Source: Azospirillaceae bacterium (GTDB lineage: Bacteria; Pseudomonadota; Alphaproteobacteria; Azospirillales; Azospirillaceae). Taken from it: a stretch of DNA of 64,000 nt. The position numbers and the translations under genes were made by a program. Of this stretch, positions 3,363 to 44,977 are shown piece after piece (within the stretch, counting starts at the first letter, position 1; every line of letters begins with the position of its first letter). The notes beneath the pieces were generated by a model, which had not been told where the DNA came from, ran no database searches, and saw nothing but the letters and a program-made list of their open reading frames with translations. The stretch lies in assembly GCA_028283825.1 (NCBI GenBank), contig JAPWJW010000002.1:62001-126000 (forward strand). Reading direction: 5' to 3'.

Positions 3363-3419
3363 AAGCCCGTCAACCCAGGGCCCGATGCCGGCGTCATGAG
3401 CCAGGCTTATGCCGCCATA

Positions 3420-3515
3420 GGCCGCGACCGCGGCCGCCGGAAGTTTCCGGGAAGCGTAGCGGACCGGAAACTGAGGAAGCCCAGCCGCCGGATGGCGGCG
3501 CCCGGCGCATGAGGG
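3420..3515 (+). repeat. Three-hairpin dispersed repeat, copy A
   Basis: First of four related elements. Hairpin 1 is GGCCGC-gacc-GCGGCC (3420-3435). Hairpin 2 pairs AGTTTCCGG (3442-3450) with CCGGAAACT (3464-3472). Hairpin 3 is GCCGCC-ggat-GGCGGC (3484-3499). It ends with the conserved GCCCGGCGCnTGAGGG. It lies 57 bases after the adaptor stop, on the same strand, and is followed by a terminator-like hairpin at 3532. Loops and linkers match copies B-D, while the stems differ in sequence but remain paired. Confidence 0.85.
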
Positions 3516-8525: not shown

Positions 8526-8560
8526 TCCATCGGCATGAGACTTCGACTCATGCCGATGGA
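8526..8560. repeat. 14-bp perfect hairpin before repeat copy B
   Basis: TCCATCGGCATGAG (8526-8539) pairs perfectly with CTCATGCCGATGGA (8547-8560) around a 7-base loop. It lies 18 bases after the diguanylate cyclase stop and abuts hairpin 1 of repeat copy B. It may terminate the cyclase transcript, although no T run follows. Confidence 0.7.
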
Positions 8561-8658
8561 GGCGCCGACTGGCGCCGCCGGAGCTTTATGGGAAGCGGAG
8601 CGAACCGGAAAGCGAGGACCAGCCAAGCCGGCGGATGCCGGCGCCCGGCGCTTGAGGG
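8561..8658 (+). repeat. Three-hairpin dispersed repeat, copy B
   Basis: Hairpin 1 is GGCGCC-gact-GGCGCC (8561-8576). Hairpin 2 pairs GCTTT (8583-8587) with AAAGC (8609-8613). Hairpin 3 is GCCGGC-ggat-GCCGGC (8627-8642). It ends with GCCCGGCGCTTGAGGG. It lies downstream of the diguanylate cyclase in the same orientation, and an inverted repeat follows at 8678. Confidence 0.85.
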
Positions 8659-13856: not shown

Positions 13857-13896
13857 CGTCTCCTTACAATCACTGAACGCACCGCCCGTTCACCCA

Positions 13897-13995
13897 GGCC
13901 GGCGACCGCCGGCCCCCGTAGATTTCGGGGGAGCGTCAGCGGACTGGAAATCGAGGATAAGCCAAAGGCCCGGATGGGCCTGCCGGCGCTTGAGG
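13897..13995 (+). repeat. Three-hairpin dispersed repeat, copy C
   Basis: Hairpin 1 is GGCCGGC-gacc-GCCGGCC (13897-13914). Hairpin 2 pairs GATTTC (13921-13926) with GAAATC (13947-13952). Hairpin 3 is AGGCCC-ggat-GGGCCT (13966-13981). The end, CCGGCGCTTGAGG, is the most diverged of the four. It is read on the plus strand, but both flanking genes are on the minus strand, and it ends at the TonB receptor stop. No terminator-like hairpin follows. Confidence 0.8.
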
Positions 13996-13999
13996 AACA

Positions 14000-28435: not shown

Positions 28436-29620
28436 ATGACGCGCATTATTCCAAGAGTGGCCCTGGTGGCGACGCTGTCCGTGGCGGCGGTGGCGCTGGT
28501 CGGGTGTGACGGCAAGAAGCAGGCGCCGCCGGCCATGGGCCCAGCGTCGGTGGGCATCGTCACCGTGACCCCGCAGCCGGTGACCCTGTCCACCGAACTG
28601 ACGGGCCGCACCTCCGCCTTCCGCGTGGCCGAAGTCCGCCCGCAGGTCAGCGGCGTCATCCTGAAGCGGCTGTTCACCGAAGGGTCGGACGTCAAGGCCG
28701 GCCAGCAGCTGTACCAGATCGACCCGGCGCCGTATGAGGCGACGCTGGCCAGCGCCAAGGCCAGCCTGGCCCAGGCGGAGGCCGCCGTGAAGTCGGTCAA
28801 GGCCAAGGCCGAGCGCTACACCGACCTGGTGACCGTGAACGCCATTTCCAAGCAGGACTACGACGACGCCGTCGCCTCGCTGGCGACCGACCAGGCGTCG
28901 GTGGAGGCCGCCCGGGCCCAGGTCAAGACCGCGCAGATCAACCTGGACTACACCCGGGTCTATTCCCCCATTTCCGGCCGCATCGGCCGGTCCAACGTCA
29001 CCGAGGGCGCGCTGGTCACCAGCGACCAGACGACGGTGATGGCCACCGTGCAGCAGCTGGACCCGCTGTACGTCGACATCACCCAGTCCAGCGCCGACCT
29101 GTTGCAGCTGCGCCAGGAAATCGCCGCCGGCCACGTCAAGGACGCGACCGCCGGCGAGGCACCGGTGACCCTGTTCATCGACGGCCTACCCGCCGCCTAT
29201 GGCCAGCCGGGCCGCCTGCAGTTCGCCGACGTGACCGTGGACACCACCACGGGCATGGTCACCCTGCGCGCCATCGTCCCCAACCCCAAGGCGGACCTGC
29301 TGCCGGGCCTGTTCGTGCGGGCGCGGGTGGAGGAAGGCGTGCGTAACGACGCCGTGCTGGTGCCGCAGCAGGCGGTGCAGCGCGGCGGCGACGGCAGCGC
29401 CACCGTCTGGGTGGTCGGCCAGGACAACAAGGTCAACATCCGCCCCGTGACCACCACCCAGGCCCAGGGCGACAAGTGGGTGGTGACCAGCGGCCTGGCC
29501 GCCGGCGACCGCATCGTCGTGGAAGGCGTGCAGCGCCTGCGCCCCGGCGCCGAGGTGAAGCCCGATCCGGTGGATCAGGCCAAGCCCGCGGCCGCCCCCA
29601 CCACGCAACAGCCGCTCTGA
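28436..29620 (+). CDS. RND efflux periplasmic adaptor (AcrA/MexA-like lipoprotein)
   Basis: The 394-residue membrane-fusion protein has a lipoprotein signal ending AVALVGC, lipoyl halves ([14 protein letters not shown] and [19 protein letters not shown]), a coiled-coil hairpin between them, beta-barrel ([10 protein letters not shown]) and C-terminal membrane-proximal domain ([21 protein letters not shown]). It links the permease at 29631 to the outer-membrane factor at 32771. ATG 28436 is preceded by a GAGG and replaces a longer open frame from 28382. It is first gene of the operon under the divergent TetR gene. Confidence 0.94.
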
Positions 29621-39023: not shown

Positions 39024-41231
39024 ATGCCGCACGACCGAACGGAGCCCACCCCCATGCGTCGCGTCCTTCTTCTCAGTGTTTCCCTTCTGTCCCTGACCGC
39101 CATCGCCCAGGGCACCGCCCGCGCGGCCGAGGCCGACGCGTCCGCCGACGCGGCGGCGGCCTCCGGCGGCGTGTCGGAAGAGGTGGTGGTCAATGCCGAC
39201 CGGGAGCGGGGGACCGCCGCCAGCCTGGCGCCCACCCAGGCCTCGCTGTCCGCCGTGCAGCCGCAGTCGCTGCTGAACAGCCACTTCATCGAGGACGTGG
39301 CCTCGCCCATGTCCGACTATTTGGCCATCGTCGAATTCTCGCCGTCCAGCAGCAACTCCACGCCCAACGGCATGGGCATGTCGAGCAAGAACGCCACCAT
39401 CCGCGGCTTCCAGGACGGCGAATACAACGTCACCTTCGACGGCATCCCCTTCGGCGACCCCAACGCCTTCGGCCACGCCACCACGTCCTTCTTCCCCGCC
39501 CCCACGCTGGACCATGTGACGGTGGACCGCGGCCCCGGCACCGCCAGCACGGTGGGCAACGCCACCTTCGGCGGCACCATGGCGCTGGCCTCCGGCACGC
39601 CCACCGACACCTTCGGCGGCAAGGGCATGATGGCCTTCGCCAGCGGCGGCGGCTTTGAAAGCGGCGGCAGCGTCAACACCGGCACCCTGCCCGAGACCGG
39701 CACCAGCATCCTGCTGAACTATGACCACACCCAGTCGGACGGCCTGCTGGATTACGCCGGCTTCAACCGCGACAACGGCATGATCAAGGTGAAGCAGCCC
39801 ATCGGGGCCAGCACCACCGTCACCGCCTTCGCCGACTACAGCGACCTGACCTGGAACAACTTCACCCAGCAGACGAAGGCCGCCACGGCGAAGTACGGCA
39901 AGTCCTTCGCCAACCTGAACAACGACCCCAATTCGCAGCAGTACCAGGACTATAACGTCGACCATCGCAAGTCCGACTTCGAGTATATCGGCGTCGAAAG
40001 CGACCTGGGTTTCCTGCGCATCGACAACAAGGCCTACACCTACGCCCTGGACGACAAGGCCACCGGCGGCGCCGACCAGAGCGGCGCCACGCCAAACTCC
40101 GGCCTGCTGTCCAGCGGCGTGCCGGGCGCCAACGTCGCCGGGTACTACCGGGCCTGGGGCGACATCGCCAAGGTGGAAAAGGACGTGGGCGAGGGCTTCT
40201 TCACCAGCACGCTGCGCGCCGGCGTCTGGGCGGAACACGCCCGCGACACCCAGTTCGAACAGTCGGTCGACCTGAAGACCGGCACCATCATGCCGTTCAC
40301 GCCCTACACCAAGTACGGCAGCACCATCTTCAACTACGCGACCGAGAGCGACACCACCCAGCCCTTCTTCGAGGTGGAATGGCACCCCATCCCCGACCTG
40401 ACCATCATCCCCGGCTTCAAGCACATCGACTTCTCGCGCACCTTCCAGGGCACGCTTAACTTCGTGCCCTACAACAGCCGGGGCGACTACAGCGCCGACC
40501 TGGGCTCCACCATGGTCAACTACCGCGTCAACGACCAGATGGCGGTGTACGGCCAGTGGGCCATGGGCTTCCAGGCGCCGCAGGTCAGCGTGCTGGAGAC
40601 CAGCGGGTCCAGCGCCAACCGCGTCACGCCGCAGCAGACCATCAATTACCAGGCCGGCGTCGTCTACAAGACCGACCGGCTGGTCGCCGACTTCGACGGC
40701 TATTACATCAACTTCCGCAACAAGGTCGGCAGCGACCTGGAGACGGTGAACGGCATCGCCAACACCACCGTCTACTACAACCAGGGCGGCGTGATTTATA
40801 AGGGCATCGAGGCGGAGGTGACCTACACCCTGTTCAACGGCCTGGCCGTCACCGCCAACGGCAGCCTGAACAGCGCCGCGACCAAGGCCACCGGCCTGCA
40901 GATCGCCAACGCCCCCAGCAGCACCCTGGCCTTCGGCGCCCTGTACGACAAGGACAACTGGTTCGGGTCGGTCATGACCAAGTATGTCGGCACCCGCTAC
41001 GCCGGCACGGGCGAGCGCGCCGACGGCAATTCCAACGTGAAGCTGCCCGACTACGCCTTCACCGACGTGGTGGTGGGCTACAAGATGGGCGACCGGCTGA
41101 AGGTCAGCTTCATGGTCAACAACCTGTTCGACAGCCGCACCGCCACCGAGGGCAGCGGCAGCCTGACCAACCCCACCTACTACTACCTGCCCAGCCGCAA
41201 CTACATGGGCTCCATCACCGTCGGTTTCTGA
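39024..41231 (+). CDS. TonB-dependent outer-membrane receptor
   Basis: The 735-residue receptor has a signal (RRVLLLSVSLLSLTAIAQGTARA), a short N-terminal extension with SEEVVVNADRERGT as possible TonB box, and plug motifs KNATIRGFQDGEYNVTFDGIP and VDRGPGTASTVGNATFGGT. The last residue is F (MGSITVGF), the usual outer-membrane barrel signature. ATG 39024 has GGAAGG eight bases upstream; ATG 39054 is a plausible alternative. It heads a locus with GH92 and PI-PLC-like genes, so the ligand may be a mannosylated glycoconjugate or a product of these enzymes. Confidence 0.9.
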   Translation: MPHDRTEPTPMRRVLLLSVSLLSLTAIAQGTARAAEADASADAAAASGGVSEEVVVNADRERGTAASLAPTQASLSAVQPQSLLNSHFIEDVASPMSDYLAIVEFSPSSSNSTPNGMGMSSKNATIRGFQDGEYNVTFDGIPFGDPNAFGHATTSFFPAPTLDHVTVDRGPGTASTVGNATFGGTMALASGTPTDTFGGKGMMAFASGGGFESGGSVNTGTLPETGTSILLNYDHTQSDGLLDYAGFNRDNGMIKVKQPIGASTTVTAFADYSDLTWNNFTQQTKAATAKYGKSFANLNNDPNSQQYQDYNVDHRKSDFEYIGVESDLGFLRIDNKAYTYALDDKATGGADQSGATPNSGLLSSGVPGANVAGYYRAWGDIAKVEKDVGEGFFTSTLRAGVWAEHARDTQFEQSVDLKTGTIMPFTPYTKYGSTIFNYATESDTTQPFFEVEWHPIPDLTIIPGFKHIDFSRTFQGTLNFVPYNSRGDYSADLGSTMVNYRVNDQMAVYGQWAMGFQAPQVSVLETSGSSANRVTPQQTINYQAGVVYKTDRLVADFDGYYINFRNKVGSDLETVNGIANTTVYYNQGGVIYKGIEAEVTYTLFNGLAVTANGSLNSAATKATGLQIANAPSSTLAFGALYDKDNWFGSVMTKYVGTRYAGTGERADGNSNVKLPDYAFTDVVVGYKMGDRLKVSFMVNNLFDSRTATEGSGSLTNPTYYYLPSRNYMGSITVGF

Positions 41232-41321
41232 TGCGTCCCTCGGGCGCCGCGCGGCCGCATCCGCGGTGGCTTCCTCACTGCGCCCTGCGGTGCTCGCTCC
41301 GGCGCCCGCGGTCGCGGGCTA

Positions 41322-41358
41322 CAGCAGCGGCGTGAGTCAAAAGCTCACGCCGCTGCTG
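41322..41358. terminator. 15-bp perfect hairpin between TonB receptor and GH92 gene
   Basis: CAGCAGCGGCGTGAG (41322-41336) pairs perfectly with CTCACGCCGCTGCTG (41344-41358) around TCAAAAG. No T run follows. It lies 91 bases after the receptor stop and 64 bases before the GH92 start, so it may set relative expression by partial termination or mRNA protection. Confidence 0.6.
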
Positions 41359-43700: not shown

Positions 43701-44822
43701 ATGGTCCCCCCCTCATTCCGCGCCCTGCTGTTGGCGGGCATCGCCCTGTCCGTGACCTCCTGCGCCGCCACGCCCAAGGATGACGGCCTGCGCCTGAACC
43801 AGATTCAGGTGATCGGCACCCACAACAGCTATCACGCCGGCATCGCCGCCAATGAATCGGTGCTGTGGAAGAAGACCAACCCCGACCAGTACGCCCTGCT
43901 GGACTATCACCACCAGAGCCTGACGGCGCAGCTGTCGGCCGGCGTGCGGCAGGTGGAACTGGACGTCTATGCCGACAGCAAGGGCGGCCTGTACGCCCAC
44001 CCCGCCGGCCCCGGCCTGGTGACCAAGGCGGGCCTGCCGGCCGATCCGGCGTTCGATCCCAATCACGTGATGGACAAGCCGGGCTTCAAGGTCATGCACG
44101 TGCAGGACGTGGACTACCGCAGCACCTGCCAGCCCTTCACGGCCTGCCTGTCGGAAATCCGCACCTGGTCAAAGGCCCACCCCGGTCACGCCCCGATCTT
44201 CATCCTGGTGGAAACCAAGGAGGAGGCGCTGCCCCTGCCCTTCCCCACGGTGAAGCCGGAGCCGCTGACCCCCGCCAGCCTGGATGCGCTGGACCGGGAA
44301 GTGCTGTCGGTGTTCCAGGCGGATGAGGTCATCACCCCCGACCGGGTGCGCGGGACCACCGCCACCCTGCCGGCCGCCATCAGCCAGCACGGCTGGCCCA
44401 CCCTGGCGGACGCCCGGGGCAAGGTCGTCTTCCTGCTGGACCAGCGCAAGATCAGCGACCGGTATCTGGACGGCCACGCCGCCCTGAAGGGCCGGGTGAT
44501 GTTCACCAATGCCCAGGCCGGCACCGACGATGCCGCCTTCATCGAGATGAACGACGGCCCCGGCGACGCCATCGCGGCCCTGGTGCGCCAGGGCTACCTG
44601 GTGCGCACCCGGTCCGACGCCGACACCAAGGAAGCGCGGGCCAACGACACCCGCCGGCGCGACATGGCGCTGGGCAGCGGTGCGCAGATCATCAGCACCG
44701 ATTATCCGGCCAGCGAACCGGCGGCCAACGGCTTCGTCGTCGCCCTGCCCGGTGGTGTCGCCGCCCGCTGCAACCCGGTGACGGCCCCCGCCGGCTGCCC
44801 GGCGGGGGATTTGGACCGGTAG
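43701..44822 (+). CDS. Calcium-dependent phosphatidylinositol-specific phospholipase C-like lipoprotein
   Basis: The 373-residue protein has a lipoprotein-like signal ending LSVTSC, and the PI-PLC barrel: VIGTHNSYHAG (first catalytic histidine), VRQVELDVYADSKG (metal-binding Glu and Asp), and FKVMHVQDVDYRST (second histidine). These match the calcium-dependent PLC group of Streptomyces rather than the metal-free Bacillus enzymes. Substrates could be phosphatidylinositol or GPI anchors. It starts 15 bases after the GH92 stop with AAGGA upstream, so both are in one transcript. Pairing with an alpha-mannosidase suggests action on GPI-type or other mannosyl-phosphoinositide glycans. Confidence 0.85.
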   Translation: MVPPSFRALLLAGIALSVTSCAATPKDDGLRLNQIQVIGTHNSYHAGIAANESVLWKKTNPDQYALLDYHHQSLTAQLSAGVRQVELDVYADSKGGLYAHPAGPGLVTKAGLPADPAFDPNHVMDKPGFKVMHVQDVDYRSTCQPFTACLSEIRTWSKAHPGHAPIFILVETKEEALPLPFPTVKPEPLTPASLDALDREVLSVFQADEVITPDRVRGTTATLPAAISQHGWPTLADARGKVVFLLDQRKISDRYLDGHAALKGRVMFTNAQAGTDDAAFIEMNDGPGDAIAALVRQGYLVRTRSDADTKEARANDTRRRDMALGSGAQIISTDYPASEPAANGFVVALPGGVAARCNPVTAPAGCPAGDLDR

Positions 44823-44840
44823 CGGCATGTGCCGCTTCTA

Positions 44841-44939
44841 GGCCCCGACGGGGGCCGCCGGACCTTTCCGGGAAGCCAAAGGCGGACTGGAAAGGGAGGA
44901 AGCCCAAGCCAGCGGATGCTGGCGCCCGGCGCGTGAGGG
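44841..44939 (+). repeat. Three-hairpin dispersed repeat, copy D
   Basis: Hairpin 1 is GGCCCC-gacg-GGGGCC (44841-44856). Hairpin 2 pairs CCTTTCC (44863-44869) with GGAAAGG (44889-44895). Hairpin 3 is GCCAGC-ggat-GCTGGC (44908-44923). It ends GCCCGGCGCGTGAGGG. It begins 19 bases after the PI-PLC-like stop on the same strand; a small hairpin AGCGGCA-tg-TGCCGCT (44821-44836) precedes it and an 11-bp hairpin follows. Confidence 0.85.
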
Positions 44940-44967
44940 GGCCTTTGATCGGGATCGATCAAAGGCC
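44940..44967. terminator. 11-bp hairpin directly following repeat copy D
   Basis: GGCCTTTGATC (44940-44950) pairs perfectly with GATCAAAGGCC (44957-44967) across GGGATC. It follows copy D with no gap and ends 10 bases from the stop of the convergent gene at 44978. It lacks a long T run, so it is terminator-like rather than certain. Confidence 0.55.
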
Positions 44968-44977
44968 GCGCACATAA

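Follow-up and report, generated by a model that had tools for sequence, protein, structure and literature searches.

A dispersed three-hairpin repeat of Azospirillaceae, apparently a new family within a known class of bacterial mobile repeats

We found that the hairpin element dispersed through the window (the whole 64,000-nucleotide stretch of Azospirillaceae DNA analyzed here) belongs to a large repeat family. This family is, with a probability of about 0.75 in our judgment, a non-autonomous mobile repeat (MITE/REP-like) of the Azospirillaceae. At full length, the element consists of a 5′ hairpin (P0), a core with three hairpins (P1, P2, and P3), and a 3′ hairpin (Pend).

A covariance model of the core was built on 36 copies from the source genome, namely, the four window copies plus 32 that BLAST located in retrieved stretches; a second instance of copy 1 among the latter was removed. 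Inspection of the sequence showed the four copies of the original prediction to lie where it had placed them, with the stems and loops it described, and the model locates their cores on the plus strand. The core of copy 1 (3418–3515; 115.7 bits) consists of P1 (GACC loop), P2 (with an inner GC/GC helix), P3 (GGAT loop), and the tail TGAGGG and is preceded by a plus-strand P0 at 3385–3417 (GCCGGCGTCATGAG..CTTATGCCGCC; sequence, alignment, and fold). The core of copy 2 (8559–8658; 101.2 bits) likewise follows a plus-strand P0 at 8526–8558 (alignment and fold), and its lowest-energy fold with P0 departs from the consensus. Copy 3 (13895–13996; 83.5 bits), which lies at a site with orthologs in congeners, is flanked by two minus-strand genes. 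Copy 4 (44839–44939; 102.7 bits) has a shortened P0 at 44815–44838 (plus strand; alignment) that overlaps the end of the upstream gene according to the gene call, and is followed at 44940–44974 (plus strand) by Pend with the right terminal repeat and then TAA, as read from the sequence and the terminus. The claim that there are four copies, all on the plus strand, holds for these four but misses a degenerate fifth copy on the minus strand at 41237–41321 (30.9 bits, E 1.7e-4). According to sequence and gene calls, this copy has a shortened P2 and lies between two plus-strand genes, the first of which ends at 41231; its P0, seen in the sequence, is at 41322–41357 (minus strand). Five further model matches in the window (E 0.29–9.3) were taken as chance.

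The element of the original prediction lacked the upstream P0 and the 3′ hairpin of the copy at 44841. P0 lies upstream of the core in many copies (typically CAGCGGCAYGAG..CTCRTGCCGCTG, with varied sequence), and Pend follows it in some copies only. Of 134 source-genome copies, narrow patterns located P0 in 50 and Pend in 14, such that these patterns recognize both ends in a minority of copies at most, which counts against the mobile-repeat reading. When both strands of 1.26 Mb were counted, 70 of 74 P0-type and all 30 Pend-type hairpin matches had a core no more than 60 nt away, which ties both hairpins to the core. Their outer arms constitute terminal inverted repeats starting with TAC or TAT, read from the sequence as TACCGCCGAGCGTAA / TATCATCGAGCGTAA in the related genome G032 and as TACCAGCGGCA / TACGCGCGGCA in full copies of the source genome. 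All eight GGAGCGNAGCGAC modules in the 1.26 Mb were within 60 nt of a core as well; this module may resemble a CGTC REP.

Signs of mobility were found in G032, in which the element, as delimited by duplications, is 156 bp long and five copies (query included) at different sites are 100% matching. Among 16 stretches fetched from this genome, 14 gave 15 pattern-located copies, of which 14 had both ends. An identical TNA triplet (TGA, TCA, or TAA) stands on both sides of 12 of these 14 copies, and the two discordant ones have CTA/TTA and TGA/CGA. Of the two remaining stretches, one (L194) has an element cut within the P0 arm by an IS5-type element, and in the other (L208) the pattern is absent. 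Two copies in the relative G005 are flanked, by eye, by TAA/TAA and TGA/TGA. In the source genome, equal triplets (TTA, TAA, TCA, and TCA) flank four of the six copies with both ends, where only the equality of the triplets is informative since the 3′ pattern required TNA; TNA precedes 11 of the 25 copies with a pattern-found 5′ end. In Nitrospirillum, in which relatives are approximately 6–15% diverged, no site gave a clean comparison of a filled and an empty state together with a target duplication, and this counts against the mobile-repeat reading.

A matching autonomous element was not found in G032, nor was a pair of ends alone on one strand (full-element search; 40 of 146 candidates scored), which likewise counts against the mobile-repeat reading. 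An ORF with a positive coding score, according to a model trained on another genus, precedes one of the five identical G032 copies and three older ones. IS5-type (PF13340) insertion sequences occur in the source genome (L220, L222, and L224), where they are flanked by TNA duplications, and in G032 (L213–L236). We rejected the idea that the element is an internal deletion product of these resident IS5-type elements, since the readable terminal repeats differ; in G032, the anchor for the IS5-type ends was found in 14 of 16 copies, and the right end is poorly delimited.

Matches at E 1e-5 were found in at least 22 of 59 genomes of the family Azospirillaceae (strict filters; at most 69 candidates scored in each). 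These include all seven genomes of the window's own genus and 10 of 11, 2 of 5, and 3 of 22 genomes of three others (g12, g5, and g11, respectively), and under the same filters and scoring none of the 14 genomes of the other nine genera had a match at this threshold. A pattern for the long core retrieved 47 stretches among 84,980 species genomes, all from records named Nitrospirillum or "Azospirillum sp. B4," and the own genus (g1) is thus Nitrospirillum, to which the window very probably belongs as well. The long form is found in Nitrospirillum, and the three related genera have a short form, whose core of approximately 75 nt contains a much reduced P2 hairpin. The short form was also found on a plasmid of Niveispirillum cyanobacteriorum, the sole record matched in a plasmid collection; a phage collection gave no match to the element. 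Four or more cores stand in tandem in each of two arrays, found in G020 (L237:11032–11484; period approximately 119) and G023 (L210, C20:22292–22692; period 108), and the size of the G020 array differs in two congeners. In G005, many listed copies lie within approximately 200 nt of a contig start (e.g., C117:3–78 and C45:30–105), suggesting that near-identical copies or arrays break this assembly.

The hairpins are supported by paired changes. RNAalifold predicted 27 pairs for the 36 source-genome copies, 17 of them with at least one two-sided change. Standard pairs make up 99.0% of the 971 pair cells (85.5% in shuffles), two-sided changes number 115 cells (28.3 in shuffles), and the covariation score is 0.378 (0.132 in shuffles), a value reached by 0 of 500 shuffles; the number of further pair types was reached by 3 of 500. 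Pairing fell to 25–43% when the partner was slid by one to three columns, a control that leans toward the structure because this very alignment had served to derive it. Among 135 model matches, with an alignment fitted to the model, 3217 cells are Watson–Crick, 176 G–U, 21 A–C, 48 other, and 183 gaps. Two pairs are absent from the original prediction: an inner GC/GC pair in hairpin 2, with seven two-sided changes, and an outer CC/GG pair in hairpin 3, with two. The CC/GG pair below hairpin 2 has none and is thus without covariation support. For the short form, 20 of 28 loci were aligned; those left out had short flanks or repeated a G032 element already included. In these 20 copies, P1 and P3 are 99.4% paired with 52 two-sided cells (reached by 0 of 500 shuffles). 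The count of pairs showing two-sided change was reached by 7 of 500 shuffles, and that of pair types by 22 of 500; the short P2 pairs over 6–8 bp in 18 copies. Paired changes that keep the stems, as originally claimed, were seen in source-genome copies, in short-form copies of other genera, and in orthologous copies.

Folding of the window copies (the first two including P0, copies 3 and 4 core only) gave plus-strand z-scores of −2.1 to −4.6, and minus-strand folds of two copies gave −4.1 and −2.0. For copies 1, 3, and 4, the fold of lowest energy includes the three hairpins, and flanking CCGG stretches additionally close the core in copies 1 and 4. In the lowest-energy fold of copy 2, the P1 sequence pairs with the P3 sequence and the consensus hairpins 1 and 3 are absent.

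The source genome has at least 150 matches of 99.5 bits or more, and 1.264 Mb of it contains 135 model matches at E up to 0.05, or 134 copies since one element is split over two stretches. This density is an overestimate, as two of the contigs (C1 and C3) contributed stretches picked where matches were dense. The C2 stretch alone (464 kb), with 37 matches at E up to 0.01 among 39 listed up to E 1, extrapolates to about 570 copies per genome. Based on approximate gene calls from a home-made caller, 69 of the 134 copies lie between convergent genes, 33 in tandem pairs in sense, 28 in tandem pairs in antisense, and four between divergent genes, compared with 26 convergent and 41 divergent copies expected from net intergenic length. 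No copy extends more than 40 nt into a called ORF.

With a non-autonomous mobile repeat, these patterns are best explained as follows. Insertion would duplicate a 3-bp TNA target, as seen in G032 and a few source-genome copies. The family appears old in Nitrospirillum, as recognizable ends have often been lost and the closest other of the 41 source-genome places found by BLAST with copy 1 is 92% identical. The surviving copies are confined almost entirely to intergenic space at gene 3′ ends, shortly after the stop codons of one or both neighbors, a placement that may come from the purging of harmful insertions. Pairing would be kept since copies with broken hairpins may fail to spread or be replaced, and a hairpin behind a stop codon is possibly useful as the 3′ end of a transcript. 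The mover may be an IS5-type DDE enzyme, for which the TNA duplication is the one suggestive observation.

Presence and content of the element at one site vary between species. At the site of copy 3 (13897), the full core is present in four of six congeners, internally deleted in G024, and empty in G034. No core was found at the 3420 and 8561 sites in six aligned congeners, at the 44841 site in four, or at the 41237 site in the one aligned, and the orthologous alignments at these four sites are too diverged for exact junctions. An operon site before a CoA-transferase-like gene has the full core in two congeners, a fusion of P1 with the tail in one, and P1–P2 without P3 in one. For two operon cores (L109:9191–9287 and L113:9372–9469), we observed the tail GAGGAA at the expected ribosome-binding site of this gene, the identity of which was judged by eye. 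For G020, orthologous flanks were found for 14 of 23 places in at least one of two congeners. We compared 16 orthologous core pairs, which were chosen as alignable, matched by coordinates and sequence, and are not independent since sequences are shared among them. Their cells comprise 332 unchanged, 45 with two-sided change and paired, eight with one-sided change and paired, eight with one-sided change and unpaired, and 39 gapped. Loops and stems at orthologous sites persist beyond the expectation for a dead mobile copy, which counts against the mobile-repeat reading.

One alternative is a domesticated RNA in the 3′ untranslated region, with hairpins kept because, as transcripts, they protect mRNA 3′ ends or influence how the upstream gene is terminated or translated. 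We regard this explanation as possible, if well short of probable. In agreement with it, core edges are within 60 nt of a stop codon in 117 and within 15 nt in 56 of the 130 copies with a neighboring gene 3′ end, and the orthologs show 45 two-sided changes with pairing kept against 16 one-sided ones. Ribosome stalling is reported for REPs that lie no more than 15 nt from a stop codon (PMC12306157), an activity that would suit such an RNA. Moreover, when two P2 pairs are set aside, there are 47 G–U against 20 A–C cells (p 0.0013, for cells that are not independent), and this excess favors pairing of the given strand, either as RNA or as one DNA strand, without deciding between them. By context, the counts are 18/4 in sense, 19/9 in convergent, 10/6 in antisense, and 0/1 in divergent copies; the antisense excess is weaker but not reversed, and one specific DNA strand would behave likewise. 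Copies in tandem gene pairs have no orientation preference (33 sense vs. 28 antisense, p 0.61), and the occurrence of both orientations behind genes would point to purging of harmful insertions rather than a sense-strand RNA task. Sites also turn over, with the cores at 3420, 8561, 44841, and 41237 missing in aligned congeners. A role as 3′-UTR RNA is possible, but the even orientation and the coming and going of sites among species argue against it as the main reason for the family.

A second alternative, which we consider rather unlikely, is that no selection acts on the structure and that pairing is upheld by a mutation or recombination process, such as correction templated by the hairpin, gene conversion, or differential loss from tandem arrays. 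The changes at orthologous stems follow a bimodal distribution: of 54 paired positions, none differs in one pair and 15–17 differ in three others, in which the flanks are 92–95% identical. This pattern suggests replacement of whole cores, by conversion or differential loss from tandem arrays, besides gradual change. In one pair with 98.5% identical flanks, the stems differ by a single G–C to C–G flip in P3; such flips are frequent in stems, and the tandem arrays are also in line with this alternative. However, it leaves unexplained the conserved loops and linkers and one P2 position that keeps G–U in 95 of 118 letter pairs. In a search for the donor of one replaced core, the best other match was 93% identical (40 of approximately 150 candidates scored per genome), and gene conversion from a near-identical copy is not supported.

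The core could also be a structured RNA or single-strand DNA module that is carried by a transposon and stays functional after insertion, with stems changing only in pairs; we hold this to be doubtful. If it is true, the mobile repeat would install one standard 3′-end structure of three hairpins downstream of hundreds of genes, in either orientation. The original prediction saw strong evidence for selection on structure. The paired changes stand, but this wording is too strong for a mobile or formerly mobile family, in which pairing may persist via multiplication, copy replacement, or hairpin-templated correction, and a selected RNA is only partly supported. Copies lacking covariation, or a match to a described repeat or IS-derived element, had been considered as outcomes speaking against the prediction; the genome-wide copies do covary, but the element is MITE-like, which partly bears out the second outcome.

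As originally suspected, the element matches no recognized RNA family: no Rfam family reached its gathering score for the elements in the window, and the best match overlapping one in looser scans was CC3552 (27.3 bits vs. a gathering score of 50). Elsewhere in the window, a match to Bcj14 (Burkholderia RNA 14) at 28550–28722 on the plus strand (60.7 bits vs. a gathering score of 59) overlies the start of a called gene (28436–29620). Among the matches listed in a literature search on repeats, REPs, and MITEs of Azospirillum, Niveispirillum, and Nitrospirillum, no title concerned this family. Intrinsic terminators were rejected, as by eye no T-run directly follows the cores in the listed flanks; a separate terminator-like hairpin follows copy 1.

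The closest known elements are CGTC REPs and MITEs, and the present family combines features of both. Alphaproteobacterial REPs tagged with CGTC are described as high-copy palindromes with heterogeneous stems and no dedicated transposase known, located downstream of genes and between co-directional and convergent ORFs, with A. lipoferum named among the species that have them (PMC3733652). The present family is like them in high copy number, 3′ intergenic location, varied stems, and lack of a known transposase (PMC3733652). However, CGTC REPs are described there as single hairpins of 20–40 bp with loops of 4–5 nt (PMC3733652), whereas the present core has approximately 98 nt and three hairpins and is only part of an element that has terminal repeats and is flanked by TNA duplications. 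With bacterial MITEs that duplicate TNA it shares the short length (156 bp), terminal inverted repeats, 3-bp duplications, and identical copies in G032, but the three hairpins of its interior are conserved, and paired changes in them were seen in four genera. Such MITEs are presumably of IS5 type, and the ends of the resident IS5-type elements differ from those found here. Taken together, these comparisons suggest a new family within a known class of bacterial repeats.

The family also has features of GTAG-type REPs, BIMEs, and REPINs with RAYT: a mosaic of hairpins, hundreds of copies, clusters, and 3′ intergenic placement as given for REPs in PMC3733652. The core starts mostly with TAGG, often after a G, and continues as a palindrome, a tendency noted without a statistic. 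Movement by RAYT or another Y1 transposase is nevertheless very improbable, although the Y1 genes of some relatives raise its odds slightly. Y1_Tnp was found in three of four short-form relatives searched (two genes in G005, one in G039, and one in G032, the genome with identical copies; none in G023) but in none of seven Nitrospirillum genomes, including that of the window (controls found in 6 of 14), and a RAYT/IS200 origin was rejected. The three hairpins, unlike those of GTAG REPs, are mutually different and fixed in order, and the element has target duplications and terminal inverted repeats. To our knowledge, Y1 insertion does not yield TNA duplications and terminal inverted repeats. The original speculation about CsrA/RsmA sponges or targets, based on GGA in the P3 loop and seen also in several linkers, is hardly credible, as a Pfam model found no CsrA in six genomes searched (controls found in 3 of 14) and the hundreds of copies are dispersed in both orientations.

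Strong covariation among dispersed copies alone is no proof of a cellular RNA function, and REP-like repeats with no known transposase, such as the CGTC class, are an open problem. The full-length copies with terminal repeats, the 3-bp duplication, and the identical insertions in G032 make both the transposase and the role of the hairpins testable in the present family.
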